Source of the DNA: a bacterium
GTDB lineage: Bacteria > Eisenbacteria > RBG-16-71-46 > CAIMUX01
DNA: 49,448 nucleotides
Reading direction: 5' to 3'
Assembly: GCA_030431975.1 (NCBI GenBank)
Contig: JAUIHP010000033.1
Location: forward strand, 1-49,448
Every line of letters starts with the position of its first letter. Position 1 is the stretch's first letter. The translations under genes and the position numbers were made by a program. The notes below the pieces were generated by a model. The model worked only from the letters and a program-made list of their open reading frames with translations, made no database searches and was not told where the DNA came from. Positions 2,530 through 35,358 of this stretch are shown here, piece after piece.

Positions 2530-4050
2530 ATGATTTATTCGAACCCCGGTGCGGACGGCGCCAAGGTTGAGTTTCAGAAGAAGTACGACAACTTCATCGG
2601 CGGAAAGTGGACGCCTCCGGTGAAAGGGCAGTACTTCGACAACGTCACGCCCGTCACCGGCAAAGCTTTCTGCCAAGTGCCCCGTTCCAGCGCCGAGGAC
2701 ATCGAACTCGCGCTGGACGCTGCGCATGCTGCGGCTGACAGCTGGGGGCGTACGGCTGCGGCTGAGCGGGCCAACATCCTGAACAAGATCGCAGACCGCC
2801 TGGAAGCCAATCTCGAAAAACTCGCGGTGGCCGAAACCTGGGACAACGGCAAGGCGGTTCGGGAAACGTTGGCGGCTGATCTTCCTTTGGCCATCGATCA
2901 CTTCCGCTATTTCGCCGGTTGTATCCGCGGGCAGGAAGGCACTCTTTCCGAGCTGGACGACGATACCGTGGCCTATCACTTCCATGAGCCACTCGGCGTG
3001 GTCGGCCAGATCATTCCCTGGAACTTCCCGATCCTGATGGCGACATGGAAGCTCGCTCCTGCGCTGGCGGCTGGGAACTGCGTCGTCCTCAAACCGGCCG
3101 AGCAGACTCCGGCCTCGATTCTGCTGGTCATGGAACTGATCGCGGACCTGCTGCCGGACGGCGTGATCAACATCGTCAACGGGTTCGGTCTCGAGGCCGG
3201 CAAGCCTCTCGCCTCCTCGAGCCGGGTGGCCAAGGTCGCCTTCACCGGAGAGACGACCACGGGTCGGCTCATCATGCAGTACGCGAGCCAGAACATCATT
3301 CCGGTCACTCTCGAGTTGGGCGGCAAGTCTCCCAACATCTTCTTCGACGATGTCCTTGCCGCGGACGACGACTTCTTCGACAAGTCTCTCGAAGGGCTCG
3401 TCATGTTTGCATTGAACCAGGGTGAAGTTTGCACCTGTCCGTCGCGAGCTCTCGTTCAGGAATCGATCTACGATAAGTTCATGGACCGGGCGCTGGCCCG
3501 TGTCGCCGCGGTCAAGCAAGGGAACCCGCTCGACTCGGAAACGATGATGGGAGCGCAGGTATCCACGGAACAGATGGAGAAGATCCTCTCCTATATCGAC
3601 ATCGGGAAGCAGGAAGGGGCGGAGTGTCTCACCGGGGGTTTCAAGGCTGATTTGGGCGGGGACTTCACGGACGGCTTCTTCGTCGAACCGACGGTCTTTC
3701 GCGGTAAGAACTCGATGCGCATCTTCCAGGAGGAGATCTTCGGCCCGGTTGTCTCCGTGACGACGTTCAAGGACGAGGCAGAGGCTTTGTCCATCGCCAA
3801 CGACACCCTGTATGGACTGGGAGCCGGAGTTTGGACCCGCGACGCAAACCGGGCCTATCGCTTCGGGCGTGAGATCAAAGCCGGGCGCGTTTGGACGAAC
3901 TGCTATCACCTTTATCCGGCTCACGCCGCGTTTGGGGGCTACAAGCAGTCCGGAATTGGACGTGAGAACCACCGGATGATGCTGGATCACTACCAGCAAA
4001 CGAAGAACCTGCTTGTCAGCTACAACCCGAAGGCGATGGGGTTCTTCTAG
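2530..4050 (+). CDS. NAD-dependent aldehyde dehydrogenase, acetaldehyde/ExaC-AcoD type
   Basis: A 506-aa class I aldehyde dehydrogenase that oxidises an aldehyde, most likely acetaldehyde, to the carboxylate using NAD(P)+. Visible signatures are [20 protein letters not shown] (cofactor-binding region), [10 protein letters not shown] with general-base Glu about residue 262, and [11 protein letters not shown] with catalytic Cys 301. The [11 protein letters not shown] form is typical of the acetaldehyde dehydrogenase group. GGAAGGAG at 2513-2520 precedes the ATG by 9 nt. An earlier ATG at 2524 is followed at once by TAG and is not used. DUF779 downstream and the divergent AcoR-like activator support induction during alcohol, acetaldehyde or acetoin use. 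The last codons and the stop lie inside the first copy of a 17-bp tandem repeat. Confidence 0.95.
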
Positions 4051-4141
4051 CCTCGAGGTTCTTCAAGCCTCGGGGTTCTTCAAGCCTCGGGGTTCTTCAA
4101 GCCTCGAGGTTCTTCAAGCCTCGAGGTTCTTCAAGCCTCGA
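4040..4141. repeat. 17-bp tandem repeat, six copies, starting in a stop codon
   Basis: Six head-to-tail 17-mers, consensus GGTTCTTCAAGCCTCGA with A/G at the last base, at 4040, 4057, 4074, 4091, 4108 and 4125. The first copy has CTAG where the others have CAAG; this T creates the TAG stop of the dehydrogenase. Each unit can fold as a small hairpin (GAGG...CCTC). Copies are nearly identical, suggesting recent slippage. There are no unique spacers, so it is not a CRISPR. Confidence 0.95.
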
Positions 4142-4862: not shown

Positions 4863-5363
4863 AGCTTTGCCTTTGCTTGGTCGACTGAATTCGAAGACCG
4901 CAATTGAGAGGAAGATCGACGAAGTATCCGGCGGCAACCGCTTACCGCCCTGCCCCGCCAATCCTCCTTCAACGAGGAGTTCGGGAGGCCTTCGACTTCG
5001 TACACCGAAAGTCGGAATTCGGTGGGTGAGAGGCATCTTGGATCCGCAGCTGGATCGGCAACGGGATTCGGAGCCGGATAGAAGTCGGACTCCCCGTTAG
5101 GTTTCGCTTTCTCGTAGAGATATTTCTCGCCACGGCACCTGGCTTCTGCCACTATGGCTTTCGGGTATCTTTCCCGCCCGAGGTGCATCCGCAGCCCTCG
5201 TTCGGGTCCAACCGCTAGATGCTCTTGCCCCATTCCGGGGCGCTGCCGCCGCAACAATCGCTGTTCGTCCTACCGACGGGTGGAGCGGATGGTTGCGCAC
5301 AGAAAACGCACGGGTCCGGCCGGGGCTCGACCGCGCTTTCACCAAACATACAAGGGAGCTTCT
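4863..5363. other. Gene-free stretch upstream of the beta-helix gene
   Basis: About 500 nt without a convincing coding frame. The beta-helix reading frame extends back to 5154, but those codons are Arg/Cys-rich, unlike the gene, and precede the signal peptide. No RNA gene or strong promoter was recognised. Confidence 0.5.
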
Positions 5364-8300
5364 ATGCCTAGGAGTAGTCTGCTCATCCTTCCTGCAATCT
5401 CGTTGCTCGGCGCGGGATCGGCCTTTGCGGCCACGATCACCGTCGATGACAGCGGGGACATCGTCGCCGCCGACGGTCGTTGCACGTTGCGGGAAGCTAT
5501 CGGAAACGCCAATGCCAATGCGGACCTGACGTCGGGCGATTGCGTAGCCGGTGACAATATGAACGACACGATCGTCTTTGACTCGGCTCTTTCCGGATCG
5601 ACGATCTTGTTGCAAAACGGAGAACTGATCATCGCTGACGCGATGCCCGGCCCTGACGAAGGAGTCATGATTGATGGGTCCTCGGCCAGCGTCACCGTCG
5701 ACGCCAACGGAATGAGCCGGGTCTTCAATGTTCAAACCGACGCGAGCTTCGGTTGGTTCACGATCACGAACGGGAGTGTGACCGACGACAACGGCGGGGC
5801 GATCTACAACACAGCCTCGCTCGATCTGACCGATTGTTCGATCACGAACTCCCAGGCGACCGGTACCGGGGGCGCAGCCCAGGGTTCGGGCGGAGGGATC
5901 TTCAACGGTCCGGGAGGAACGGTCACAATCGATGGCGGAGTTCTCTCCGGCAATCTTGCAGATCGGGCCGGCGGAGCCATCGAGGATGCATCGGGTGAGG
6001 CCATGGCTCTCAGCATTGCGGGCGCCATCTTCACCGGCAACGGCGCGGGCATCGGCTCGGGTACGACGGCTGCGCCCGGAAACGGTGGAGCCATCCACAT
6101 CACCGGCGCCGGTGGAACGATGATCGACGGTGGGCTCTTCTCCGCAAACAGCGCGGCCGCCGAAGGTGGAGCGTTGTGGAATGGAAGTGGAACCATGTGG
6201 GTCGGCGGTGGCGTCTCCATCGATGGAAACACCGCGGCCGGTGATGATGCCAGCCAGGGTGGCGGCGGCCTTTTCCAGAACAACGGCGGACTGCTGCAGT
6301 TGGACGAAGCGAACGTCTCCAACAACACGGCGACGGGAACTTCCGGTTCCGGCGGCGGCATCCTCGTCGAAGAGGACTCGCAGCTCGAGATCACGGATTC
6401 TGCGATCTGGGGCAATATTGCGAATCGGGCCGGTGGAGCCATCGAGCTTCGGGCCAACACCACGACGACCATTCAATCGACGAATCTGGAAGGCAACAAC
6501 GCGGGTGTGATACCGGCGACGGCAGCCCCCGGAAACGGCGGCGCGCTTCATATCACCGGTCCGGGCTCTGTCTCGATCACCGGCGGAAGCGTGACCGGAA
6601 ACATGGCGGCCCGTGAGGGTGGTGGACTCTGGAACGACAGCGGAATCATGACGGTGAATGACGTCACGATCGACAGCAACGAAGCGAACGGCGATACGGC
6701 CGACGATGGGGGCGGCGGCGTCTTCAACAACGCCGGAACCGTCGAACTGATCGACTCCCGCGTCACCAACAACTCCGCTCTGGGCGCCGCGGGCTCCGGT
6801 GGTGGGGTACTCACCAACGACGGAACCACGCTCGATGTCAACGGCGGCACCATTGCGTTCAACATCTGCAACCGCGCCGGCGGCGGCGTCGAGGCCCGGC
6901 CCGAGTCGCAGACCAACCTTATGAACACACGGTTCGAGGGGAACAACGCCGGGATGGCTCCGGCCGTAGCTGCGCCGGGTAACGGCGGTGGAGTCCACGT
7001 GACCGGCAGCGGGAACGTCCTCGTCAGCGGCGGTTCGTTCACGACGAACACGGCCGCAGCCGAGGGTGGCGGACTCTGGAACGGCAGTGGCCTCATGCTG
7101 ATTCAGGACGGGGCATCCGTCGACAACAACTGGGCGTCCGGAGACGATGCGACCCAGGGCGGTGGCGGCCTCTTTCAGAACAATGGCGGAGAGATTCGGG
7201 TTACGGACAGCTTCGTGACGAACAACGTTGCGGACGGGGCAGCAGGCTCCGGCGGCGGAATCTTCGTCGAGGACAACGGGACGGTCAGCGTGACCGGCGG
7301 TGAAATCTCCGGCAACCGCTCGAACCGCGCGGGTGGTGGAATCGAGGTTCGCAGCTTCACGACGACGACACTGTCGGGAGTCGAGATGCGCGGAAACAAC
7401 ACGGGTGTTTCTCCGGCCACGGCGGCTCCCGGAAACGGCGGAGCCCTGCACGTGACCGGTGCGGACGGACCTTCCACGGTAAACGTCGACAACTGTGAGA
7501 TCGCCGATAACCTCGCCGCGCGCGAAGGGGGCGGCCTCTGGAACAACGCGACCGGCGGCGGACGCAGCGTCATGACGGTCGACAACTCGGTCTTTACCGG
7601 GAACGAAGCCCGTGGCGACGCAGCGGACGACGGTGGCGGCGCGCTCTTCAACAACGGAGGCGACCTCTACGTTCGGAATCTCTGCGTCATCGACGGAAAT
7701 CACGCGACCGGTACGTCGGGAAGCGGTGGCGGAATCTTCAACAACGTCGGCGGACTCACCGAAGTCTATGACTCCATGGTGACGGGGAACTCCTCGAACC
7801 GGGCCGGCGGAGGAATCGAGAACGTTGCCGACCTGTTGGTCGTACGTACGACGCTTCGCGGAAACGACGCGGGAAGCAATCCGGGTAACGGTGGCGGTCT
7901 GCATAGCGCGGGCGCAGCGACGGCTGTTTTCGATCGTTCGACGGCGTCGGGAAACAACGCGCGGGAAGGCGGCGGTCTTTGGAACTCCGGAGCCTCCGTC
8001 CTCAACGTCTACAACTCGACCGTTTCCGGGAACACCGCGACACGGCCGGCTCCCAGCGGAGGCGGTGGAATCTTCCAGCAGGCCGGTAGCGCCGGCACGA
8101 TGACGATGCTCAACGTCACCGTCGCGGAGAACCAGGCGGCAGGTAACGGCGGTGGTTTCCAGAACAGCGCCGACAACCTCGTCGTGGCCGGCAACGTCAT
8201 CTTCGGTGACAACTCGGCCCCTTCGGGACCGGATGTGTTTGGATCTTTGAACGCGGACTACTGTGTGATCGAGATTCCGGCCGGTGCGGTCATCACGGGC

Positions 8301-9098
8301 GGCAACAACATCCACCAGGATCCGGTCTTGGCGCCGTTGGGCTTGAACGGCGGAACGACGGAAACCCATGATCTTCTGGATGGAAGCCCGGCCATCGATG
8401 CCGGTGATGATGCCATCTGCATGGGTCCGGAAGTCGACAACATGGATCAGCGCGAAGTTCCGCGGCCCGACGGCAACGGTTGCGACATCGGCGCTGTCGA
8501 GTCCGCCGCAGTCGTGCCGGTGGCGTTCGCCTACTTCAATGCCGAGGCCGGCGACGCCGTGGGAGAGGTCAACCTGAGATGGGCGACCGCCCTTGAAGTG
8601 GACCACGCTGGCTTCTTCGTCTATCGCAGTGAGAACAGTGGAGAGACGTGGGAGCAGTTGTCGGATGAACTCGTGACCGGAGACGGGGTCTACGGTTTCG
8701 CCGACCGGAGCGCCGCTCCGTCGACCCGCTACTTCTATCGTCTCGAGGCCATTTCGAACGACGGTGTTCCCCAGCTGTCACCAGCTCGGGAGATCACGAC
8801 GCCGGATTGGCGGACGCCGACCGGACTCCAATCCGTCAGTCCCAACCCGGTTGTCGGCTCGGCCACGGTCAGCTTCTCGCTGTCTGCGGAAAGCCGCGTC
8901 CGTCTGAGTGTCTACGACGCGACGGGGCGTGAGGTCCAGGTTTTGGGCCAGGGCAACTGGAGTGCGGGTACGCACGCGGTCGAGTGGGATGGACGGCTCT
9001 CCACCGGGCAGTCTGCAGCGGACGGCGTGTACTTCGTTCGCATGAGTCATGACACCGGAGCGGAGACCCGCAAGATCGTCCTTCGTTCCGGCAATTGA
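5364..9098 (+). CDS. Giant secreted beta-helix protein with CSLREX-type N-terminus and C-terminal sorting domain
   Basis: A 1244-aa exported protein. ATG 5364 has AAGGGAG 5 nt upstream and starts a clear signal peptide (LLILPAISLLGAGSAFAA). Near residue 35 is CTLREAIGNANAN, the CSLREX-type motif that precedes beta-helix repeats in secreted proteins. Residues about 90-1000 are right-handed beta-helix with Gly-rich turns (GGGLWN, GSGGGI). Five supra-repeats of about 150 residues begin at PGNGG motifs encoded at 6075, 6528, 6975, 7428 and 7881. Then come a fibronectin-III-like domain (VNLRWATALEVDHAGFFVYR) and a FlgD-like sorting domain (SPNPVVGSATVSFSL ... GVYFVRM). It is probably a surface adhesin or a polysaccharide-acting protein, but no catalytic residues are recognised. 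Confidence 0.9.
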   Translation: MPRSSLLILPAISLLGAGSAFAATITVDDSGDIVAADGRCTLREAIGNANANADLTSGDCVAGDNMNDTIVFDSALSGSTILLQNGELIIADAMPGPDEGVMIDGSSASVTVDANGMSRVFNVQTDASFGWFTITNGSVTDDNGGAIYNTASLDLTDCSITNSQATGTGGAAQGSGGGIFNGPGGTVTIDGGVLSGNLADRAGGAIEDASGEAMALSIAGAIFTGNGAGIGSGTTAAPGNGGAIHITGAGGTMIDGGLFSANSAAAEGGALWNGSGTMWVGGGVSIDGNTAAGDDASQGGGGLFQNNGGLLQLDEANVSNNTATGTSGSGGGILVEEDSQLEITDSAIWGNIANRAGGAIELRANTTTTIQSTNLEGNNAGVIPATAAPGNGGALHITGPGSVSITGGSVTGNMAAREGGGLWNDSGIMTVNDVTIDSNEANGDTADDGGGGVFNNAGTVELIDSRVTNNSALGAAGSGGGVLTNDGTTLDVNGGTIAFNICNRAGGGVEARPESQTNLMNTRFEGNNAGMAPAVAAPGNGGGVHVTGSGNVLVSGGSFTTNTAAAEGGGLWNGSGLMLIQDGASVDNNWASGDDATQGGGGLFQNNGGEIRVTDSFVTNNVADGAAGSGGGIFVEDNGTVSVTGGEISGNRSNRAGGGIEVRSFTTTTLSGVEMRGNNTGVSPATAAPGNGGALHVTGADGPSTVNVDNCEIADNLAAREGGGLWNNATGGGRSVMTVDNSVFTGNEARGDAADDGGGALFNNGGDLYVRNLCVIDGNHATGTSGSGGGIFNNVGGLTEVYDSMVTGNSSNRAGGGIENVADLLVVRTTLRGNDAGSNPGNGGGLHSAGAATAVFDRSTASGNNAREGGGLWNSGASVLNVYNSTVSGNTATRPAPSGGGGIFQQAGSAGTMTMLNVTVAENQAAGNGGGFQNSADNLVVAGNVIFGDNSAPSGPDVFGSLNADYCVIEIPAGAVITGGNNIHQDPVLAPLGLNGGTTETHDLLDGSPAIDAGDDAICMGPEVDNMDQREVPRPDGNGCDIGAVESAAVVPVAFAYFNAEAGDAVGEVNLRWATALEVDHAGFFVYRSENSGETWEQLSDELVTGDGVYGFADRSAAPSTRYFYRLEAISNDGVPQLSPAREITTPDWRTPTGLQSVSPNPVVGSATVSFSLSAESRVRLSVYDATGREVQVLGQGNWSAGTHAVEWDGRLSTGQSAADGVYFVRMSHDTGAETRKIVLRSGN
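6075..7881 (+). repeat. About 450-bp repeats arranged as a 900-bp A/B higher-order repeat
   Basis: PGNGG-coding anchors are spaced 453, 447, 453 and 453 bp. Copies 1 and 3 share an A form (AAAEGG, GDDA[ST]QGGGGLFQNNGG). Copies 2 and 4 share a B form (AAREGGGLWN, ADDGGG[GA][VL]FNN). The A-to-A and B-to-B distances are both exactly 900 bp, implying duplication of an A-B pair after A and B had diverged. Confidence 0.85.
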
Positions 9099-11521: not shown

Positions 11522-13942
11522 ATGCGAAGAACCCTGCTCCCTGCGCTCGCTCTTGCGGGCGGCGCTGCGCTTGCGCTCACCCTTTTCTACTCCCAGGACT
11601 CCGGCAACGGCGGTCAGGTCGATCGTGCCGGGGCCGGCGCGGATGCCGGCTCGGGTGCTGGCTCGGATGTCGCCGCTCTCGAGTCCAGCAACCGTACCGC
11701 CGGCAACGCGTCCGGGGTCCTGGAAGAGCTCGATCTTCCCGAGGGACCGTTTGACCCGGTCCTTTCCGTTCCGGCAGGGGGGGCGGAGCGTCTGATGCCA
11801 CCACCGGAGAACGTTGTCGTCAGCGATCCCAACGCAGATGGGAACGGCATCACGCAGTCCGAGGTCAGCATCGCAGTCAATGGTGACTTCATCGTTGTCG
11901 GATGGAACGACGGCCAGGGCTTCGTCGATGGAAGCACGTTATCCGGATACGGCTACTCCACGGACCGGGGGGTGAGCTTCACCGACGGCGGGGACATGCC
12001 GAGCGGTGGCGGAACTTCCGTCTTTGGAGATCCGGCCATCGTGTCACTTCCCAACGACGAATGGGTCTACGCGTCCTTGAACCGCGGAAGCAGTAGTGGT
12101 CTCACCATCAACCGCGGCACCTTCAACGGAGCCGCGCCGGTGTGGCAGAACGCAGTGGCTTACAACGACAACGGATGGACGCTGGACAAGGAATACCTCG
12201 AGTACGACGAAACGATGGATCGGATCTACATGTCGTACGTCGGATTCCCCGGGAACAGCGAAGGGCGTCTGACCTATTCGGACGACCGGGGTCAGTCCTG
12301 GAGCAATCCGCTTACCGTGAACACTGGTAGCTCGACGAACGGTTACTACCCCGCCGTCGGAGTCGACGGTGGAATCTACGTTTCGTGGGTCCAGCCTCTC
12401 TTCTCCGGGAACGCGGACCTTTACGTTCGTTATTCCTCGGACGGTGGCAGCAGCTGGGTCGGGCCTCGGGTTCTTATTCACACGAACGCGCCGACGGCGG
12501 GGCAGTCACCGCAGTGCTTCAACCGTGGGGTCAACATTACGTGGCCGTCTCTGGCCGTCGATCGAACGGATGGCCCCTACCGCGGACGGGTCTACGCTGT
12601 CTATTCAGACGGCGGAGCGAACAACTACGACAGCTACCTTCGTTACTCCGATGACAACGGTCAGTCCTGGACCGATCAGATCAAGCTCAACGACAACGAC
12701 AATACGAGTGAGCAGTTCTGGCCGCAGGTTTCGGTCGGCCCAGACGGCCGCGTAACCGTCGGGTGGTACGACCGTCGAAAGGCCTCCGGCAACAACAGTC
12801 TTTGCGACTTCTATGTGACGCAGTCGGTGGACGGCGGAGAGACCTGGGGGCCGAACCGTCGAATGAGCGACACTTCCGTGGCCTGGTGCGGCGTTCCTTC
12901 CAACATCGCTCCGAACTTTGGCGACTACATCGAGTGCATCTCTGATGATCGCTCGGTGTTTGCCGTGTGGTCGGATGCACGGAATGGAGATCCCGACGTC
13001 GTTTTCGGTCGGATGGACGACTACCAAACTCTCGCAACGAGCGGAGACTTCGGCGATTCCGAGGCCGCGCCCTTCAACGCCGACGGTGTGGGCTGGCTCA
13101 TTCCGAACGAAGCGGAGATTGCAATCGAATCCTCGCCGGCCACCAATGATGCGGACGCCGCGTTCGTTTCGACGCTCTTCGGGCTTCTGGCGACGCCGCC
13201 CGAGACCCAGGGTATCTACGCTATCGGCGGTGAGGCTCTGAGCGGCAACCTCCAGTTGGTATCCCCGGACGGCAACATCACCGGAACCTTCTCGCTCGTC
13301 CAGAACGGGGACAACGATATCGATTTCGATTTCGAGTCGACGAACACCGTAGCCAATGCGAGCGGGCTGTTTTCCCAGTACAGCATGACGGCGAATCTGC
13401 TCGATTCGGCCCCGGGGCAGGTCACGATTGCCGGATCTCTCCGGATGAACCGCGGTCTGGGTCAGCCGCCGATCGATTTCGCCATCTCCGGTTCGATCTC
13501 TCTCGACGGTGCGCCGTCCGAGCAACTCGGGAGCGTTCACCAACTGACGCAGGAGGCTCGGTTCGAGAACGCGTCCCGCTTCTTCGTCCATACGCGCACG
13601 ATGGTCGAGGATGGCGTGGTCGTTGCGATTCCGGACGTGGTCCTCGGTGACAATCCTCCGCCGTTGGCGTTGGTCAAGCAGTCTCCGAATCCGTGGGCTC
13701 CGGGAGCCAAGATCCGGTTCTCTCTTTCCGACGACACCGAGAACCTGAAGGTGCAGATTTTCACCCCGGATGGTCGCATGGTGCGCGAAGTGACGTCCGG
13801 CGCGTCGTTCCGGGCCGGAGAGTACGAGGTCGACTTCGACGGCAAGGATGCCAACGGTCGCAACCTTCCCAATGGTGGGTACTACCTGAAGCTGCAGGCG
13901 AGCACCGTGACGGCGGCGGGCAAGCTCTTCATGGTTCGCTGA
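11522..13942 (+). CDS. Secreted Asp-box (sialidase-fold) protein with sorting domain
   Basis: An 806-aa exported protein. GGAGG lies 6 nt before the ATG at 11522, and a hydrophobic leader follows (LLPALALAGGAALALTLFY). The N-terminal 500 residues contain at least five Asp-box motifs: STDRGVSF, SDDRGQSW, SSDGGSSW, SDDNGQSW and SVDGGETW. This marks a six-bladed beta-propeller of the sialidase/BNR type. The conserved Arg triad and Tyr/Glu of true sialidases cannot be assigned by eye, so glycosidase activity is uncertain. A beta-rich region of unknown type (about 530-720) precedes a FlgD-like sorting domain (SPNPWAPGAKIRFSL, DGRMVREV, NGGYYLKL). A terminator follows. Confidence 0.85.
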   Translation: MRRTLLPALALAGGAALALTLFYSQDSGNGGQVDRAGAGADAGSGAGSDVAALESSNRTAGNASGVLEELDLPEGPFDPVLSVPAGGAERLMPPPENVVVSDPNADGNGITQSEVSIAVNGDFIVVGWNDGQGFVDGSTLSGYGYSTDRGVSFTDGGDMPSGGGTSVFGDPAIVSLPNDEWVYASLNRGSSSGLTINRGTFNGAAPVWQNAVAYNDNGWTLDKEYLEYDETMDRIYMSYVGFPGNSEGRLTYSDDRGQSWSNPLTVNTGSSTNGYYPAVGVDGGIYVSWVQPLFSGNADLYVRYSSDGGSSWVGPRVLIHTNAPTAGQSPQCFNRGVNITWPSLAVDRTDGPYRGRVYAVYSDGGANNYDSYLRYSDDNGQSWTDQIKLNDNDNTSEQFWPQVSVGPDGRVTVGWYDRRKASGNNSLCDFYVTQSVDGGETWGPNRRMSDTSVAWCGVPSNIAPNFGDYIECISDDRSVFAVWSDARNGDPDVVFGRMDDYQTLATSGDFGDSEAAPFNADGVGWLIPNEAEIAIESSPATNDADAAFVSTLFGLLATPPETQGIYAIGGEALSGNLQLVSPDGNITGTFSLVQNGDNDIDFDFESTNTVANASGLFSQYSMTANLLDSAPGQVTIAGSLRMNRGLGQPPIDFAISGSISLDGAPSEQLGSVHQLTQEARFENASRFFVHTRTMVEDGVVVAIPDVVLGDNPPPLALVKQSPNPWAPGAKIRFSLSDDTENLKVQIFTPDGRMVREVTSGASFRAGEYEVDFDGKDANGRNLPNGGYYLKLQASTVTAAGKLFMVR

Positions 13943-28835: not shown

Positions 28836-31781
28836 ATGGCTCTAGTGGATTCTTCTGCAATAAGTTCCGGATGTGTCCAGCGTGTCGCCCGCCGATCTCT
28901 GCGAGATCTCGCCCGAGTCTTTCATTGGCTCGTCCCCGGCCTGACCTTCCTAGCCGTCGCCTGTGGCGCTGACCCGTCGGAGCGAAGGCTCGATGAGGTC
29001 CCAATGCTTCGGCGGGATGCTCGGGAGGCTCTAAAAACCCCCGAGGTCGAAAGCCGCCACCGGCAGTTCGAGCAACTCGGCACCAGCCGCCTCTACACGA
29101 CGTGGAAGAACCTGGACATCTATCTGACGGGATTGTCCCCGGAAGAGTTCGCGACGGCGCGCGAAGAACTCGGTCCCTACCTCGAACGGCTGGGGGACGG
29201 GATGGTCGGCATCTACGACTACGGCGCGGTCCGAACTTGGGCGGTCATGTTGGACACGCTGTCCGCCGAGCACATCGAAACCCGTCGCTGGCTGAAAGAC
29301 GCGAGGGTTCGGCTCAACTATGCGGCGGATCGCGAGGTCAGTGCCATCTACGACTCGCTGCTTGTGGTTCGAAAGGTTGCGCGCAGTCTTGGCGACCCCT
29401 TCTACGTTCCGTATCTCGAGACGGACCTGGCATACCGGGCCCTCGATTTCGATCCCGAGTTGGGTTGGCGGCATGCGCGGCAGGCTCTTCAGGTCGCCGA
29501 GTCTATGGAGGAGCGGGAGACGGAGTACCAGGTTCTCGGGCTCCTGGCCTTTCTGCATTCGACAGCAGGGGATCGGGATTCCTCACTCGTTTATCTGGAA
29601 GAGGGGCTCTCCCGAGCCGTCCGCACTCGCTACGGTCTGCACGCGACCCGACTCTCGCTGTTCCTGGCGAACTGGTACGAGAAGGAGGGGAGGTTCGCGG
29701 TTGCAGAGGATCTGCGCGAACAGGGGTTGCGCTATGCCGAGGAGCTCGTGGCCGGTCCTCATGCGACCCGGCTCTACTCGGAGATCATGCAGCTTTGGGG
29801 CGACCGCGAGTGTTGGGAGGCGGTCGAGAGGTATCTACCCCGCGCACGAATGGCCCTGCGGGAGGCGAGGTCGGTTGCAAGAAGATGGGGCCACAACCAA
29901 CTTCTCGTCGACGGAACTGAGCTTCGCCTCCGCGTTGCCCGCGGTGAGGTTGAGCGGGCGGAGGAACTCATCACCTCGATGGATCGGGTCCTCGTCGAGG
30001 CGGAACTCATGCAGCCGAGAATGCGTGACCTCATGCGGGCCAACGTTCATGACGCCCTTCTGGATCTCGGACGGCCGGAGCCCGTAAGGGCTCATCTCGA
30101 TACGGTCCTTCGGAATCCGGACGTGATCGGAAACATCGTTGCGGCCAGCCGGCTGGGAGCCCAGCACGCGCGTGCGCTCCTCCTGCTCGGGCGACCGGCA
30201 GAGGCATTGGAGGTGTTGAGCCGGCGGGAGGCGTGGCTGAAAGGCGCCGCGGACGACGAATTCGAGCAGGAGGCGCTCGTTGTCGATGCCTGGCTCGAAG
30301 TCGACCGCGAGAGAGCGCGGGACGAACTTGTGGCTGCACTCGGGCGGTTGGTCCCGATTCTCGAGACATCCGAACCGAGTCCCGCGAGCTACTTCCTTCT
30401 CAACAACTGCGAACGGATGCGCCGGCAGAGCCACCTGCTTTGGGGGCATGACGCACGGTCGTCGTACGAACTTGAACTCGCGTGGCGCTCCCTCCCCAGC
30501 CGAATCGGGCGCCGCCCGGGTCAAAGCTCCATTCCGGCAACCATGCCGACTTCCGGCCCGACTTCCATCCCGACTCCCGTCCCGACCCCCGTTCCCGATA
30601 CCGTCCCGGCTTCTTTCGTCCCGCCCCCGGGACTGCTTTCCACCGGCAGACAGGCGGTCTCAGCCATCGAGGCCTGGATCGAACAGACGGGGGGGACCCA
30701 CTACCTCTTCGCGTTGGGACACGATTCTGTTTGTCGATGGACGCATGGACCCGGGGGAGTGATCCGGGACACGCTCGAGGTGACGCCGACGGAACTCCGG
30801 AACGGTGTCGCGAACCTTCTCGACACGCTGGATCCGTCGGGCCCCTCCTCTGAAATCGAATGGGCGGCGGGGCTTCGTTTGCTGCACCGGCAGCTTGTCG
30901 GTGGTCCGACCGAGGAAGGGCCACCTGCAGCGGCGACGGACGCGAGGCCGGTCCTGTGGACGGTGCCGGATTTTCTGAGACAACTGCCCCCTGGGCTGCT
31001 GAACGTCGGAGTTGACGGGACCTACGAGCCTTGGGCTTCCCGAACCGAGCTCGCCATCTTTCGACCCTCCTCCCAGGAGTCGCGGACCTTCCCTCACACC
31101 ACTCGGGATGATGGGCTCATGCTCGTCAATCCAACCGTGTCGCCTGGTCTTACCCGCCGCTTCCCGGAGGTTTCGGACCTGGCTTTTGCGGAACTGGAAG
31201 GGAAGGCGGCTGCGGCCCACGATCCGCGCCTACGCGTCCTGCGACGCGAGTCTGCAACCAAGGATGCGCTGCTCGGTGCGTGGGAAAGTGTCGGGTTCCT
31301 GCATCTTGCGACTCATTTGGTGCGTCGTCCGGAGAACCCGTACCTAACCTTCGTTCCACTGGCGGGAGCGGACGATCCCGACCGAAGCAGTGACGTGCTG
31401 GAGATCATCGATGTGCGTCGGGCCGACCTTTCCGGCTGTGACACCGTCGTTCTTTCCGGCTGCGATACAGGGGCGCCGGTCTCGGTGCGGGATGGAGCGG
31501 CAGCTCCGACCTTGGCCGAGGCGTTCCTGGACGCGGGTGCGGGCGCGGTCGTGCAAACCTTCTGGCCGGTCCGTGACGATGCGGCAGCGCGCCTGGTCGC
31601 AGGTTTCCTCGAACGACGAGGCGGCGGCGAACGCTCCGATGTTCGAGCGCTGCGGGACGTGCAGGTCGAGGAATGGAAACAAGGTCACCATCCCTACGAG
31701 TGGGGGGCCTTCGGAACGCAACTCGGGATCAGTGGATTATCGGCTTGGACGAGGAAAGACGAGGCCTGGGCGAAACGATAG
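28836..31781 (+). CDS. Lipoprotein with TPR-like region and C-terminal CHAT protease domain
   Basis: A 981-aa protein. An Arg-rich N-terminus, the hydrophobic WLVPGLTFLAVAC and lipobox Cys 43 indicate an envelope lipoprotein. Residues about 60-560 are helical TPR-like pairs (LLAFLHSTAGDRDSSLVYLE, ARALLLLGRPAEALEVL). A Pro/Thr/Ser linker (about 565-595) leads to a CHAT caspase-like domain. The catalytic His 827 is in LHLATHLV and Cys 876 in VVLSGCDTG, the usual motifs and spacing. VVQTFWPVRDD and HPYEWGAFG close the fold, so the protease looks intact. No ribosome site is obvious at the ATG. The stop lies 10 nt from that of the convergent anti-sigma gene, suggesting a shared pathway. Confidence 0.88.
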   Translation: MALVDSSAISSGCVQRVARRSLRDLARVFHWLVPGLTFLAVACGADPSERRLDEVPMLRRDAREALKTPEVESRHRQFEQLGTSRLYTTWKNLDIYLTGLSPEEFATAREELGPYLERLGDGMVGIYDYGAVRTWAVMLDTLSAEHIETRRWLKDARVRLNYAADREVSAIYDSLLVVRKVARSLGDPFYVPYLETDLAYRALDFDPELGWRHARQALQVAESMEERETEYQVLGLLAFLHSTAGDRDSSLVYLEEGLSRAVRTRYGLHATRLSLFLANWYEKEGRFAVAEDLREQGLRYAEELVAGPHATRLYSEIMQLWGDRECWEAVERYLPRARMALREARSVARRWGHNQLLVDGTELRLRVARGEVERAEELITSMDRVLVEAELMQPRMRDLMRANVHDALLDLGRPEPVRAHLDTVLRNPDVIGNIVAASRLGAQHARALLLLGRPAEALEVLSRREAWLKGAADDEFEQEALVVDAWLEVDRERARDELVAALGRLVPILETSEPSPASYFLLNNCERMRRQSHLLWGHDARSSYELELAWRSLPSRIGRRPGQSSIPATMPTSGPTSIPTPVPTPVPDTVPASFVPPPGLLSTGRQAVSAIEAWIEQTGGTHYLFALGHDSVCRWTHGPGGVIRDTLEVTPTELRNGVANLLDTLDPSGPSSEIEWAAGLRLLHRQLVGGPTEEGPPAAATDARPVLWTVPDFLRQLPPGLLNVGVDGTYEPWASRTELAIFRPSSQESRTFPHTTRDDGLMLVNPTVSPGLTRRFPEVSDLAFAELEGKAAAAHDPRLRVLRRESATKDALLGAWESVGFLHLATHLVRRPENPYLTFVPLAGADDPDRSSDVLEIIDVRRADLSGCDTVVLSGCDTGAPVSVRDGAAAPTLAEAFLDAGAGAVVQTFWPVRDDAAARLVAGFLERRGGGERSDVRALRDVQVEEWKQGHHPYEWGAFGTQLGISGLSAWTRKDEAWAKR

Positions 31782-31791
31782 TCGGGGCGGG

Positions 31792-32712
31792 TTAGTCCAG
31801 CCGATCGAGTTCGCGGCGAGCCCTGGACCGAATGTCCGGACTCTCGGCTTTGCGCGACAAGTCCTGAAGAATCTGATGCGCGCGGTCGAGCTTGTCGTTT
31901 TCGATCAGGACGAGAGCGAGATCCATTCGGGCCAGCTCACCCCATGGCTGACTGCCTTCCACAAGTCGGAAGTACTCCTCGGCCCGCTCCAGATTGTTTT
32001 CACGGTACGCCAGGATTCCCGCCAGTACGTGGAGCTGGGCGTGCTCTCCGTGTTCCTCGGAAAGCAGTTCGAGCCAGGACCGTGCCTGATCCAGCCGGTC
32101 CGCAGCCAGGTAGCCCGAGACGAGCCACGTTCCGTCATCCAGTCGAGGTGAATCCGAGTGGTCGAAATTGGATTCCATCTGGGCGAGTACAGCCATCAGA
32201 GAGGTATCGGCGGAGCCCGATCTGTAAACCGGTTCCTCAGGGGCCACGGCCAAACCGCCGGGGAGGACGAGGCCGGACGATGAGCTGCGGGAAAGAGCTG
32301 CCTGGAGAGCCTCGGGCGCTTGGGGAAGCGGAGTCGAGTCCCGATTCACCAGCACGAACACGAAAACGGCTGCGGCCGCCGCGACCGCTACGGAGACCCG
32401 TGCGGGAAACCTGCGCGGGGGAGGCGAACCTCCCGTCGCGGGCGAGTGTTCTTTGCCGGCGGAACCCCCCGATCCGGAAGTCGCCCCAACTTCGGTTGAA
32501 CCTCCCGATCGGATGGAATCTACCGTTCCGGCCAGGTACGACTCCGGAATGGGAGTTGCCGGGTCGAGGTCCTGCAATGAGTCGATGACCGAGCGGTAAA
32601 GCGCCTGGCAGGCGGGGCAGCGATCCAGGTGCCTCCTGACCTCACGTAGTTCGGACGAGTCGGGGTCCTCTAGAAGCTCCGCGAGCTGATCCGTCGAAAT
32701 GTGTGTATTCAT
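31792..32712 (-). CDS. Anti-sigma factor with zinc motif, membrane segment and TPR-like domain
   Basis: A 306-aa single-pass membrane protein. The cytoplasmic N-terminus has the zinc anti-sigma motif HLDRCPAC (H-x3-C-x2-C) near residue 28. A Gly/Ser-rich spacer leads to a membrane segment (VSVAVAAAAAVFVFVLV, about 110-127). The extracytoplasmic part has TPR-like helices (SGYLAADRLDQARSWLELL, LAYRENNLERAEEYFRLV). It should sequester the sigma factor encoded just upstream until its outer part is processed or bound. Start ATG 32710-32712 is chosen by domain content. The frame runs further back but overlaps the sigma gene as a shadow. The gene converges on the CHAT lipoprotein gene. Confidence 0.88.
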   Translation of the reverse strand: MNTHISTDQLAELLEDPDSSELREVRRHLDRCPACQALYRSVIDSLQDLDPATPIPESYLAGTVDSIRSGGSTEVGATSGSGGSAGKEHSPATGGSPPPRRFPARVSVAVAAAAAVFVFVLVNRDSTPLPQAPEALQAALSRSSSSGLVLPGGLAVAPEEPVYRSGSADTSLMAVLAQMESNFDHSDSPRLDDGTWLVSGYLAADRLDQARSWLELLSEEHGEHAQLHVLAGILAYRENNLERAEEYFRLVEGSQPWGELARMDLALVLIENDKLDRAHQILQDLSRKAESPDIRSRARRELDRLD

Positions 32713-32717
32713 GATGG

Positions 32718-32900
32718 TTAGGCCCCCGCGTTCTCGACGTGGCAAGAATACGCGAGCGCGGCACTCGCGCGAGGTTTCTCCTTCAGGAGATGGGGTCGGC
32801 GGGACTCGGCGAATTCCGAATGGAAACCCGAGCCACATCCGGAGCGGCATTCCGAGTTCGAAGGTTTCCGGTCGGCGCCCTCGCCGTCTTGCGGCTTCAC
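32718..32900 (-). CDS. Possible 60-aa protein between sigma and anti-sigma genes
   Basis: A 60-codon ORF that exactly fills the gap. Its GTG start overlaps the sigma stop as GTGA, a GGAGGAGG ribosome site lies 3 nt upstream, and it ends 5 nt before the anti-sigma ATG. The product is hydrophilic with three cysteines (ECRSGCG, YSCHVE). There is no membrane segment and no recognised family. The strong start signal and tight packing argue for translation. The alternative is that the ribosome site only serves coupling to the anti-sigma gene. Confidence 0.4.
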   Translation of the reverse strand: MKPQDGEGADRKPSNSECRSGCGSGFHSEFAESRRPHLLKEKPRASAALAYSCHVENAGA

Positions 32901-33703
32901 TGGCCTCCTCCCAACTTGCGGCGAAGGTGACGAATGGCCCGTTCAGCAATCGTATAGACCTTCCGCGTGTCCCCCAAAGAGAGTTCCTGCGCGACGGCGT
33001 CGGCGGGTTGCTGTTCCTGGTAGCGAAGGCGCAGCACGGACTGTTCCTCCTCGGAGAGCTCGCCGACCGCCCGGCGTAACTCCTCGAGTTTGGCCTTGGC
33101 GGCCTGTTCGTCGATCCAGGCATCCGGCGGCGACGTGGACGGGCCGCCGAGAGACTCGATCTCGGTCTCGATCTCTTCCATGGGGACATGGCGTATCCCC
33201 GCGAGGTCCTGGGCGAGACGCCGCACGCTACGCGGGTCCAGCTCCGACTCGATTCGATCGAGGCTCTCGGTAAGCTCGAGCGCATTCAGCGAGTGTCCCT
33301 TGGCCAGCAGTGCCTCCCGTGTGCCGACGAGTCCGCGGCCGCTCCAGAAGAACTGCCGGAAGACCTCCTGATCGACTTCGCTCAATCGTTGAATCGTCTC
33401 GGGCAACTCTCTGCGTCCAAGTTTCTTACGAAGGTGATCAAGAGTCCGGCGCTCGGCGATGACGACGAGCCAGGTCGACAGCGCGGAACGTCCTTCGTAC
33501 TTGCCGAGTGCGCCCCGTCGTAGCTCGACCAAGAGATCGGCAAACACGTCCCGGACGAAGTCTTCGTCCCGTGAATGGCGTCTTCGGATGACAGATAGTA
33601 GAAGCGGTGCGTAACGAGCGACGAACTGATTCCAGGCCACGTCGGAACCCGTGTCGACAGCTCGGGCGAGCTCGATGTCGGCCTCAAAGGTTTTCGGATC
33701 CAT
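32897..33703 (-). CDS. ECF-type sigma-70 family sigma factor
   Basis: A 268-aa sigma factor. Region 2 spans about residues 20-100 (WNQFVARYAPLLLSVI, FVRDVFADLLVEL, ALSTWLVVIAERRTLDHLRK). Region 4 spans about 200-265 (LEELRRAVGELSEEEQSVLR, IAERAIRHLRRKL). The linker is about 100 residues (RRLAQDLAGIRHVPMEEIE), longer than in most ECF sigmas of around 190 aa. It directs RNA polymerase to its own promoters when released from the anti-sigma factor encoded next. ATG 33701-33703 has no clear ribosome site. The stop overlaps the 60-codon ORF. Confidence 0.9.
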   Translation of the reverse strand: MDPKTFEADIELARAVDTGSDVAWNQFVARYAPLLLSVIRRRHSRDEDFVRDVFADLLVELRRGALGKYEGRSALSTWLVVIAERRTLDHLRKKLGRRELPETIQRLSEVDQEVFRQFFWSGRGLVGTREALLAKGHSLNALELTESLDRIESELDPRSVRRLAQDLAGIRHVPMEEIETEIESLGGPSTSPPDAWIDEQAAKAKLEELRRAVGELSEEEQSVLRLRYQEQQPADAVAQELSLGDTRKVYTIAERAIRHLRRKLGGGQ

Positions 33704-33843: not shown

Positions 33844-35358
33844 CTACGCCTTCGTCTTCTTCCTGGACTTGGCCGATCGCGTGCTCTGCTTGGTAGAAGG
33901 ACGTCGTTGGCGGTCGATCTCATAGATGAGGAGGGCAGCGGCAACCGAGGCGTTCAAAGAGTTGACCTTGCCGTGCATCGGGATGCGGACGGTCCAGTCG
34001 CAACGCTTGGCCAGCGCTCTACCCAGGCCGCTTCCTTCGCCGCCGACCGCCAGAAGGAGCGGAACGGAGTAGTCGACCTCACGAAAGTCGGTGTCTCCCT
34101 CAGAGTCCGTTCCCACCAGCCAGAAGCCGTCGTCCTGAAGCCGGGCCGCGGTGGTGGCGAGGTTGCCGACCCTGGCGATGGGAAGGTGCTCGATCGCCCC
34201 TGCCGAACTTCGGGCGACGGAGGCCGTCAGTCCGGTACTGCGGTGCTTCGGTAGGAGGATCCCGTCGACGCCGGCGGCCTCTGCGGTTCGCAGGATCGAA
34301 CCCAGGTTGCCCGGATCCTGGACGCCGTCGAGAAGCAGCAGAAGGGGCGTCTTGGTCCGTCCCCGGGCCGTTTCCAACAACTCTTCGAGGCTCACGTAGT
34401 CATAGGCCGCGACCATGGCCGCGACGCCCTGGTGCTTGACCGTCCCGGCCAATCGATCGAGGTGGATCCGCGGAACGTGCTGCACCGGCACTCCCTGTTC
34501 GCCGGCGTCCTGGATGAGTTGGGTCAGCCCGCCGGCTCCGTCGGCAACCAGAAGACGAAGCACGGACCGGTTTCCCGCCAACGCTTCGGCGACTGCATGC
34601 CGACCAAAGAGATGTCCCTCGTCTTCGTCCTCCACTGCAGCATGACCCAGGCTCATGCCTTCCGGGTCCCCGTGGTCAGAATCCGTGAAGGCGCTCAGGT
34701 CCGAGAAGACGACTTCGTCGTCGAAGGAGTCCTCGCCCGCTTCGAAACGAGGTCTATCGAGGACCTCGCGTTTCGGACGTCGCTCGGACTGGCGTCGCCG
34801 TGGGGTTTCGCGCCGAGTCGGGGAGCTTCCGGCTCCCGGACGCCGGCGGGCTCCACCACGACTCGTGGTGTCGTGTGCGGTCCCGCTACGGCTCCCGACG
34901 GTCCGCCGGGCACCGTCACGTCCAGTGCCGGATCGACCGCCACTACGGCTGGGGCCGCCACTACGGCTGGGGCCGCCACTACGGCTGGGGCCGCCACTGC
35001 GACTCGGACCTCCACTACGACTCGGACCTCCACTACGGCTGGGGCCTCCACTACGGCTGGGGCCTCCACTGCGGCTCGGTCCGCCACTGCGGCTAGGTCC
35101 GCCACTGCGACTCGGGCCTCCACTTCGGCTCGGGCCGCCACTGCGGCTTGGGCCGCCACTGCGGCTTGGGCCTCCACTGCGACTGGAACCACCGCTTCGT
35201 CCGGTGCCGCCACTGCGACTCGAGCCGCCTCGGCCGTTCCCGGAGTTCCGTCCACCTGTGGTCCGGCTGCCGGTCCCGGACCCGGTGTTCCTGCCCGCGC
35301 GCCCGGCGCCTCCCGAACTCTTCCGACGGGGTGCTGCCTTCTTCTTTCTGGGAGTCAT
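33844..35358 (-). CDS. rlmB: RlmB-type 23S rRNA 2'-O-methyltransferase with long Ser/Gly/Arg repeat tail
   Basis: A 504-aa protein. The C-terminal 280 residues are a SpoU/TrmH methyltransferase: a substrate-binding domain (HLFGRHAVAEALAGN) and knot motifs DGVQDPGNLGSILRTAEAAG, LAVGGEGSGL and IPMHGKVNSLNASVAAALL. Bacterial RlmB methylates the ribose of a 23S rRNA guanosine (G2251 in E. coli). Unusually, about 200 residues precede it. They are low-complexity and basic, made largely of SRSGGP hexapeptides from an 18-bp repeat, then acidic just before the enzyme. The tail should be disordered and may bind RNA. The ATG overlaps the PqiA-like gene stop as ATGA. Confidence 0.92.
   Translation of the reverse strand: MTPRKKKAAPRRKSSGGAGRAGRNTGSGTGSRTTGGRNSGNGRGGSSRSGGTGRSGGSSRSGGPSRSGGPSRSGGPSRSGGPSRSGGPSRSGGPSRSGGPSRSGGPSRSGGPSRSGGPSRSGGPSRSGGPSRSGGPSRSGGRSGTGRDGARRTVGSRSGTAHDTTSRGGARRRPGAGSSPTRRETPRRRQSERRPKREVLDRPRFEAGEDSFDDEVVFSDLSAFTDSDHGDPEGMSLGHAAVEDEDEGHLFGRHAVAEALAGNRSVLRLLVADGAGGLTQLIQDAGEQGVPVQHVPRIHLDRLAGTVKHQGVAAMVAAYDYVSLEELLETARGRTKTPLLLLLDGVQDPGNLGSILRTAEAAGVDGILLPKHRSTGLTASVARSSAGAIEHLPIARVGNLATTAARLQDDGFWLVGTDSEGDTDFREVDYSVPLLLAVGGEGSGLGRALAKRCDWTVRIPMHGKVNSLNASVAAALLIYEIDRQRRPSTKQSTRSAKSRKKTKA
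34935..35222 (-). repeat. 18-bp coding tandem repeat, about 16 units
   Basis: Sixteen in-phase 18-mers (plus-strand form GGCCGCCACTACGGCTGG and variants) encode SRSGGP hexapeptides in the RlmB N-terminal tail. Third-position changes are scattered, while Ser, Gly and Arg codons are kept, suggesting selection on the peptide. Confidence 0.92.

Follow-up and report, generated by a model that had tools for sequence, protein, structure and literature searches.

The window analysed here, meaning the whole 49,448-nt stretch of contig JAUIHP010000033.1 (assembly GCA_030431975.1; Eisenbacteria; RBG-16-71-46; CAIMUX01), contains a three-gene module at 28836–33703: a gene for a predicted CHAT-domain lipoprotein with tetratricopeptide repeats (TPRs) on the forward strand, and genes for an anti-sigma factor and an extracytoplasmic function (ECF) sigma factor on the reverse strand (Table 1). 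A preliminary description of this DNA had suggested that the first protein might cut or bind the second and so release the third. The coordinates of all three genes hold up. The CHAT and anti-sigma genes are convergent, with stop codons 10 nt apart, a spacing given in that description and confirmed here. The start of the anti-sigma gene was reset: the listed open reading frame (ORF) of 497 amino acids is over-extended and overlaps the sigma gene, and the ATG at 32712 (306 amino acids) is preferred because it removes this overlap.

Table 1. Features of the CHAT, anti-sigma and sigma module, in positions of the window.
Feature	Position	Strand	Basis
TPR-CHAT lipoprotein, 981 amino acids	28836..31781	+	ORF, Pfam CHAT, lipobox; predicted location outside inner membrane
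Signal peptide h-region and lipobox, residues 27–43, LAVAC-G	28914..28964	+	Sequence, PROSITE-style pattern
CHAT caspase-like domain, residues 699–961	30930..31718	+	Pfam match
Catalytic His827 (predicted)	31314..31316	+	Position check; invariant in alignments
Catalytic Cys876 (predicted)	31461..31463	+	Position check; invariant in alignments
Anti-sigma factor, 306 amino acids: zinc motif, one transmembrane segment, outer TPR domain	31792..32712	-	Pfam, start check, alignment, hydropathy, model
Zinc anti-sigma motif H28-x3-C32-x2-C35	32608..32631	-	Invariant in 6/6 family members
Single transmembrane segment, about residues 104–122	32347..32403	-	Hydropathy 2.43
Juxtamembrane outer motif S-x-x-x-(I/L/V)-L-P-G ... 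YRSG, residues 144–166	32215..32283	-	Conserved; proposed cut/contact site
Outer TPR domain, about residues 170–305	31798..32205	-	Pfam TPR_19; helical repeats in model
ECF-type sigma factor, 268 amino acids, long sigma2–sigma4 linker	32897..33703	-	Profile matches, family alignment

The CHAT protein matches Pfam PF12770 at 103.3 bits (cut-off 24) over residues 699–961. Its dyad is intact, with His827 (in ATHLV) and Cys876 (in LSGCDTG) exactly where the preliminary description had placed them, and both residues are unvaried in two alignments of CHAT proteins, one of three members and one of two. By profile and dyad the protein is a member of the CHAT peptidase family, and its protease role is predicted. 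Among solved CHAT structures, the Craspase TPR-CHAT chains come nearest in sequence, followed by separase; a defence-system library gave weak BovA CHAT matches only. The N-terminal hydrophobic stretch ends in LAVAC-G and fits a PROSITE-style lipobox at Cys43. The TPRs score below the Pfam cut-offs in the window protein, and an orthologue in a Ca. Krumholzibacteriota metagenome-assembled genome (MAG; locus L118) has a clear TPR_12 match (8.5e-14).

The two other products also have the character first ascribed to them. The anti-sigma factor carries H-x3-C-x2-C at residues 28–35, N-terminal to its one transmembrane segment (residues 104–122), and by this arrangement is of the zinc anti-sigma (ZAS) layout; it scores 18.8 bits against zf-HC2, just under the cut-off of 22.2, and 37.2 bits against an NCBIfam anti-sigma model with a cut-off of 100. 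Its outer domain, described earlier as TPR-like, matches Pfam TPR_19 (5.4e-8). A structure model of a 305-residue construct has a disordered stalk (residues 60–167) followed by C-terminal helical repeats, most of which have a predicted local distance difference test (pLDDT) score of 76–95. The sigma factor matches TIGR02937 at 72.9 bits (cut-off 42.9) and sigma2 at 30.4 bits, above its cut-off; matches to sigma region 4 fall slightly under the cut-off, and the profile scan gave no sigma3 match. It is thus assigned from its domains to the ECF type, with sigma2 and sigma4 and lacking sigma3; the linker between the two regions is unusually long.

Profiles were built on the window sigma and anti-sigma factors and searched over 47 genomes of the class and over 385 genomes, respectively. 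Five loci score above 375 bits with the sigma profile, the next match being at 107 bits; the same five score above 330 bits with the anti-sigma profile, the next match (53 bits) being to TPRs only. Two of the five belong to the genome of the window, namely the window itself and a second copy, L027; the others are one locus each in genomes G030 (L076/L167), G009 (L090) and G014 (L149). A related-locus search with the single window CHAT sequence found no relatives, and a CHAT profile found one named relative only, L118, where the same sigma and anti-sigma factors were then seen. The window sigma and anti-sigma factors are a distinct family, seen in these six loci only. Co-occurrence in relatives had been set beforehand as a test of the proposed partnership, and sigma, anti-sigma and CHAT genes stand together in all six loci, from five genomes. 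Four loci (L027, L090, L118 and L076/L167) have the divergent order and two (the window and L149) the convergent one; since both orders occur, shared transcription alone does not account for the linkage. In G030 the CHAT and sigma genes are separated by a gene (L167:3006-7082) whose product, an exported protein of 1358 amino acids, has FlgD_ig and a weakly matching type IX secretion tail. The G009 CHAT is broken over two contigs, with its N-terminal half in L090 and its C-terminal end in L077, so that its full sequence is incomplete.

The association of CHAT with sigma genes extends well beyond this family. The 6.19-Mb genome has 10 CHAT genes and 40 sigma70 region-2 matches, and none of the 10 CHAT domains is more than 3.8 kb from a sigma gene, although the zone this close to sigma genes makes up about 5% of the genome. 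Class-wide, 69/106 CHAT genes, from loci retrieved from the same class, are no more than 3 kb from a sigma gene; of the CHATs flanked on each side by 3 kb or more of sequence, 45/64 are this near to one, where about 5% are expected. These counts include related paralogues, and the binomial p-values assume independence and overstate the significance; the effect is very large. CHAT-sigma linkage exceeds chance and is general in the class. Coincidental neighbourhood, or hitch-hiking of functionally unrelated genes on a genomic island, might be read from the patchy distribution of the module (4/47 class genomes), but the joint presence in 6/6 loci in varied orders, the 10/10 CHATs near sigma genes in this genome and the class-wide excess all stand against it; we consider it very improbable and close to refuted.

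For 95 CHAT domains, a quick maximum-likelihood tree with support from the SH-like approximate likelihood ratio test (SH-aLRT) puts the window, L027, L167 and L118 CHATs in one clade (support 99). The larger group around this clade (support 96) also has six other CHATs of the same genome (L022-L026 and L028), which occur in sigma operons and have no signal peptides. The exported module CHATs probably derive from cytoplasmic sigma-operon CHATs, because the clade of exported proteins is nested in the group containing these six. Lipoboxes are found in the window, L027 and L090 CHATs, and those of L076 and L118 have just an N-terminal hydrophobic segment; the N-terminus of the L149 CHAT is cut off at a contig end. 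Five of the six module CHATs, including one seen only in split form, look like a single exported-protein family. With a lipobox or hydrophobic segment on the CHAT protein, and a transmembrane segment followed by an outer domain on the anti-sigma factor, the earlier suggestion that the two would share a compartment is supported.

Elsewhere in the survey, members of other CHAT clades are found beside zinc, one-transmembrane anti-sigma factors with TPR or other outer domains (L064, L082, L088, L112, L151, L158); the overall arrangement is alike although the components differ, and in L158, 4.4 kb lies between sigma and CHAT. In L059 the sigma gene is 2 kb from CHAT and is followed by a gene for a 788-amino acid protein with protein-kinase-like sequence.

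The zinc motif (6/6), transmembrane segment (6/6) and TPR domain are retained in all six anti-sigma factors. The stalk is otherwise variable, with one conserved stretch: S..., then (I/L/V)(L/I/F)P-G/A, then Y/T-R-S/A-G in most of the six. This could be where a protease reaches the anti-sigma factor. Counting more widely, a single-transmembrane zinc anti-sigma factor follows 32/77 sigmas in CHAT loci versus 4/40 control sigmas. A hydrophobic-Arg-small motif (R-[GS]) just outside the membrane occurs in 16/32 of the CHAT-linked zinc anti-sigma factors versus 3.9 in shuffles and 3/16 control single-transmembrane proteins; as the motif was defined only after inspection of these sequences, the loci share ancestry and controls are few, we give this enrichment little weight as evidence.

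We propose that the CHAT protein cuts the exposed, partly conserved stalk of the anti-sigma factor to free the sigma factor by regulated proteolysis, a tentative reading whose chances we judge to be close to even. The zinc-motif anti-sigma factor would hold sigma at the membrane, as its family suggests, and the CHAT lipoprotein would be located at the outer face of that membrane, its TPR array serving as sensor. A signal sensed by the array would switch on the His827/Cys876 protease, which would then cut the flexible juxtamembrane stalk, most likely near LPGG...YRSG; that it would cut behind the Arg is guessed from the habits of other clan CD proteases. The remaining stub would be removed by an M50 site-2 protease and cytoplasmic proteases, by analogy with RseA/DegS/RseP, leaving sigma free; the genome has two PF02163 genes as M50 site-2 protease candidates. 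A juxtamembrane cut is a more specific proposal than the pairing of TPRs between the CHAT protein and the anti-sigma factor that was suggested earlier, which is speculation.

The invariant dyad also bears on whether the CHAT protein cuts at all. It might only bind, its TPR array sensing or shielding the anti-sigma outer domain while another protease makes the site-1 cut. RseB-type regulators are a precedent, RseB shielding RseA, and the outer domain of the anti-sigma factor, with its TPR fold, would suit protein contacts; however, selection for binding alone would not need the invariant His/Cys dyad of the module CHATs, and we regard this arrangement as quite unlikely.

The main rival places the CHAT protein downstream, as a target gene: sigma would switch on the CHAT gene, and the product would work as an envelope protease on other substrates, for instance misfolded or foreign proteins. 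Genes that adjoin an ECF sigma gene are commonly under its control, and a divergent promoter region is common to CHAT and sigma in L027, L090 and L118. The window CHAT gene has an ECF-like GGAAT-N15-CGTC at 62 nt upstream, but this single match is expected by chance. Comparison of the sigma and CHAT upstream regions gave no common promoter motif beyond shuffled sequence, and a promoter region cannot be shared in the convergent loci (the window and L149); both points count mildly against this explanation, which we think unlikely while granting it a real share of the probability.

Several observations weigh against stalk cleavage by a dedicated, exported CHAT protease. Linkage to neighbouring sigma genes could also arise if CHAT belongs to the regulon. 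Nor is the pairing strictly specific, the L149 (G014) CHAT belonging to a different clade while standing beside the same sigma/anti-sigma family, which suggests CHAT replacement there. Export is less plain in some members: the L076 CHAT has no lipobox Cys and that of L118 misses the strict lipobox pattern. A distant relative of the sigma factor in the same genome (L204:7325-8134, on C1; 107 bits) has neither an anti-sigma nor a CHAT partner. The AlphaFold model of the window CHAT (pLDDT 41) is too poor for use or for structure search, and a hold-out set for the post hoc R-[GS] motif had two usable zinc anti-sigma factors, too few to decide.

Flanking genes checked against Pfam encode an aminotransferase, a SpoU-type methylase and a symporter. 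The N-terminal part of a SpoU-type rRNA methylase gene contains an 18-bp unit repeated 16 times (34937-35229), encoding a Gly/Pro/Ser/Arg-rich tail. Further off in the window are a 17-bp tandem repeat of 6 copies (4040-4141) at the end of gene 2530-4050, and genes for two large, probably exported proteins with terminal FlgD_ig domains (5154-9098 and 11522-13942).

Among known systems, the module is like RseA/DegS/RseP and RsiW in having a single-transmembrane anti-sigma factor whose outer part, as proposed here, would be the first to be cut, and in that an M50 site-2 protease is encoded; it differs in its site-1 candidate, which would be a CHAT cysteine protease carried by a lipoprotein, where those systems use a PDZ serine protease. 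In CalpL/CalpT/CalpS of type III CRISPR a dedicated protease also cuts an anti-sigma factor and frees an ECF sigma factor (PMC11417357), but that protease is of the Lon type with a SAVED sensor, is cytoplasmic, and is activated by cyclic tetra-adenylate (cA4). In the EACC2-caspase systems, caspase-family protease domains are encoded next to genes for ECF sigma factors and DUF1822 TPR proteins (PMC8195603); they differ in not being TPR-CHAT, and no transmembrane zinc anti-sigma factor is described for them.

The genomic context of ECF54 sigma factors includes carboxypeptidase, subtilase and CHAT genes, and proteolytic control not involving an anti-sigma factor has been proposed for them in a review (PMC8999054); the preliminary description did not mention this earlier proposal of CHAT neighbours and proteolysis for ECF54. 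The window likewise has a CHAT gene near an ECF sigma gene, but its sigma factor appears to be of another family with a long linker, its anti-sigma factor is transmembrane, its CHAT is exported and no subtilase adjoins. The window does not fit the ECF54 type of neighbourhood, an anti-sigma gene being present and the flanks not being subtilase or carboxypeptidase genes. Six or seven other loci of the same genome look ECF54-like, with sigma, a small and often beta-rich protein, and a cytoplasmic CHAT, followed in three of these by a gene for a subtilase-like or another exported protein. The loci L021-L026 and L028 (contigs C33, C3, C17, C11, C44, C28 and C18) have sigma, usually a small middle protein (with a zinc motif in three of them), and a cytoplasmic TPR-CHAT; the downstream gene encodes a subtilase in L026 and a mycosin/subtilisin-like protein in L022. 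These seven operons resemble ECF54 neighbourhoods, and in function they may be nearer to Craspase than the window is.

In Craspase (type III-E CRISPR) the TPR-CHAT protein Csx29 cuts Csx30, an inhibitor of an ECF sigma factor (PMC10028731). The likeness is that a TPR-CHAT protease gene is linked to an ECF sigma factor and its inhibitor (PMC10028731); the differences are that Csx29 is cytoplasmic whereas the window CHAT is exported, and that the window inhibitor is a transmembrane zinc anti-sigma factor. The window locus is ruled out as a member of Craspase: the whole genome has no match to the CRISPR RAMP protein of the Cas7-11/RAMP effector (PF03787), in keeping with the earlier claim that the module has no CRISPR part; the Csx29 model NF041237 has no match to the window CHAT and scores 21.9 bits against its paralogue in L027 (cut-off 300); and the CASP-sigma model NF041236 scores 22.9 bits (cut-off 100). 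Taken together, the comparisons allow a broader and rather doubtful proposal: that the TPR-CHATs of this lineage (nearest named relative the Ca. Krumholzibacteriota MAG) would be dedicated partners of ECF sigma and anti-sigma factors, in the cytoplasm and outside; that the exported ones would be site-1 proteases that cut behind a conserved Arg in the juxtamembrane stretch of anti-sigma factors, regardless of how the outer domain is folded; and that Craspase would be one CRISPR-captured case of a general CHAT-anti-sigma switch. The widespread, CRISPR-free pairing of TPR-CHAT with ECF sigma factors suggests a possible origin for the protease-anti-sigma arm of Craspase. Craspase and the proximity of CHAT to ECF54 were already known; with moderate certainty, the combination of an exported CHAT and a transmembrane anti-sigma factor is new here, and provides a candidate new class of site-1 protease in signalling across the envelope, for which the active site and substrate are defined and the candidate cut region is short.

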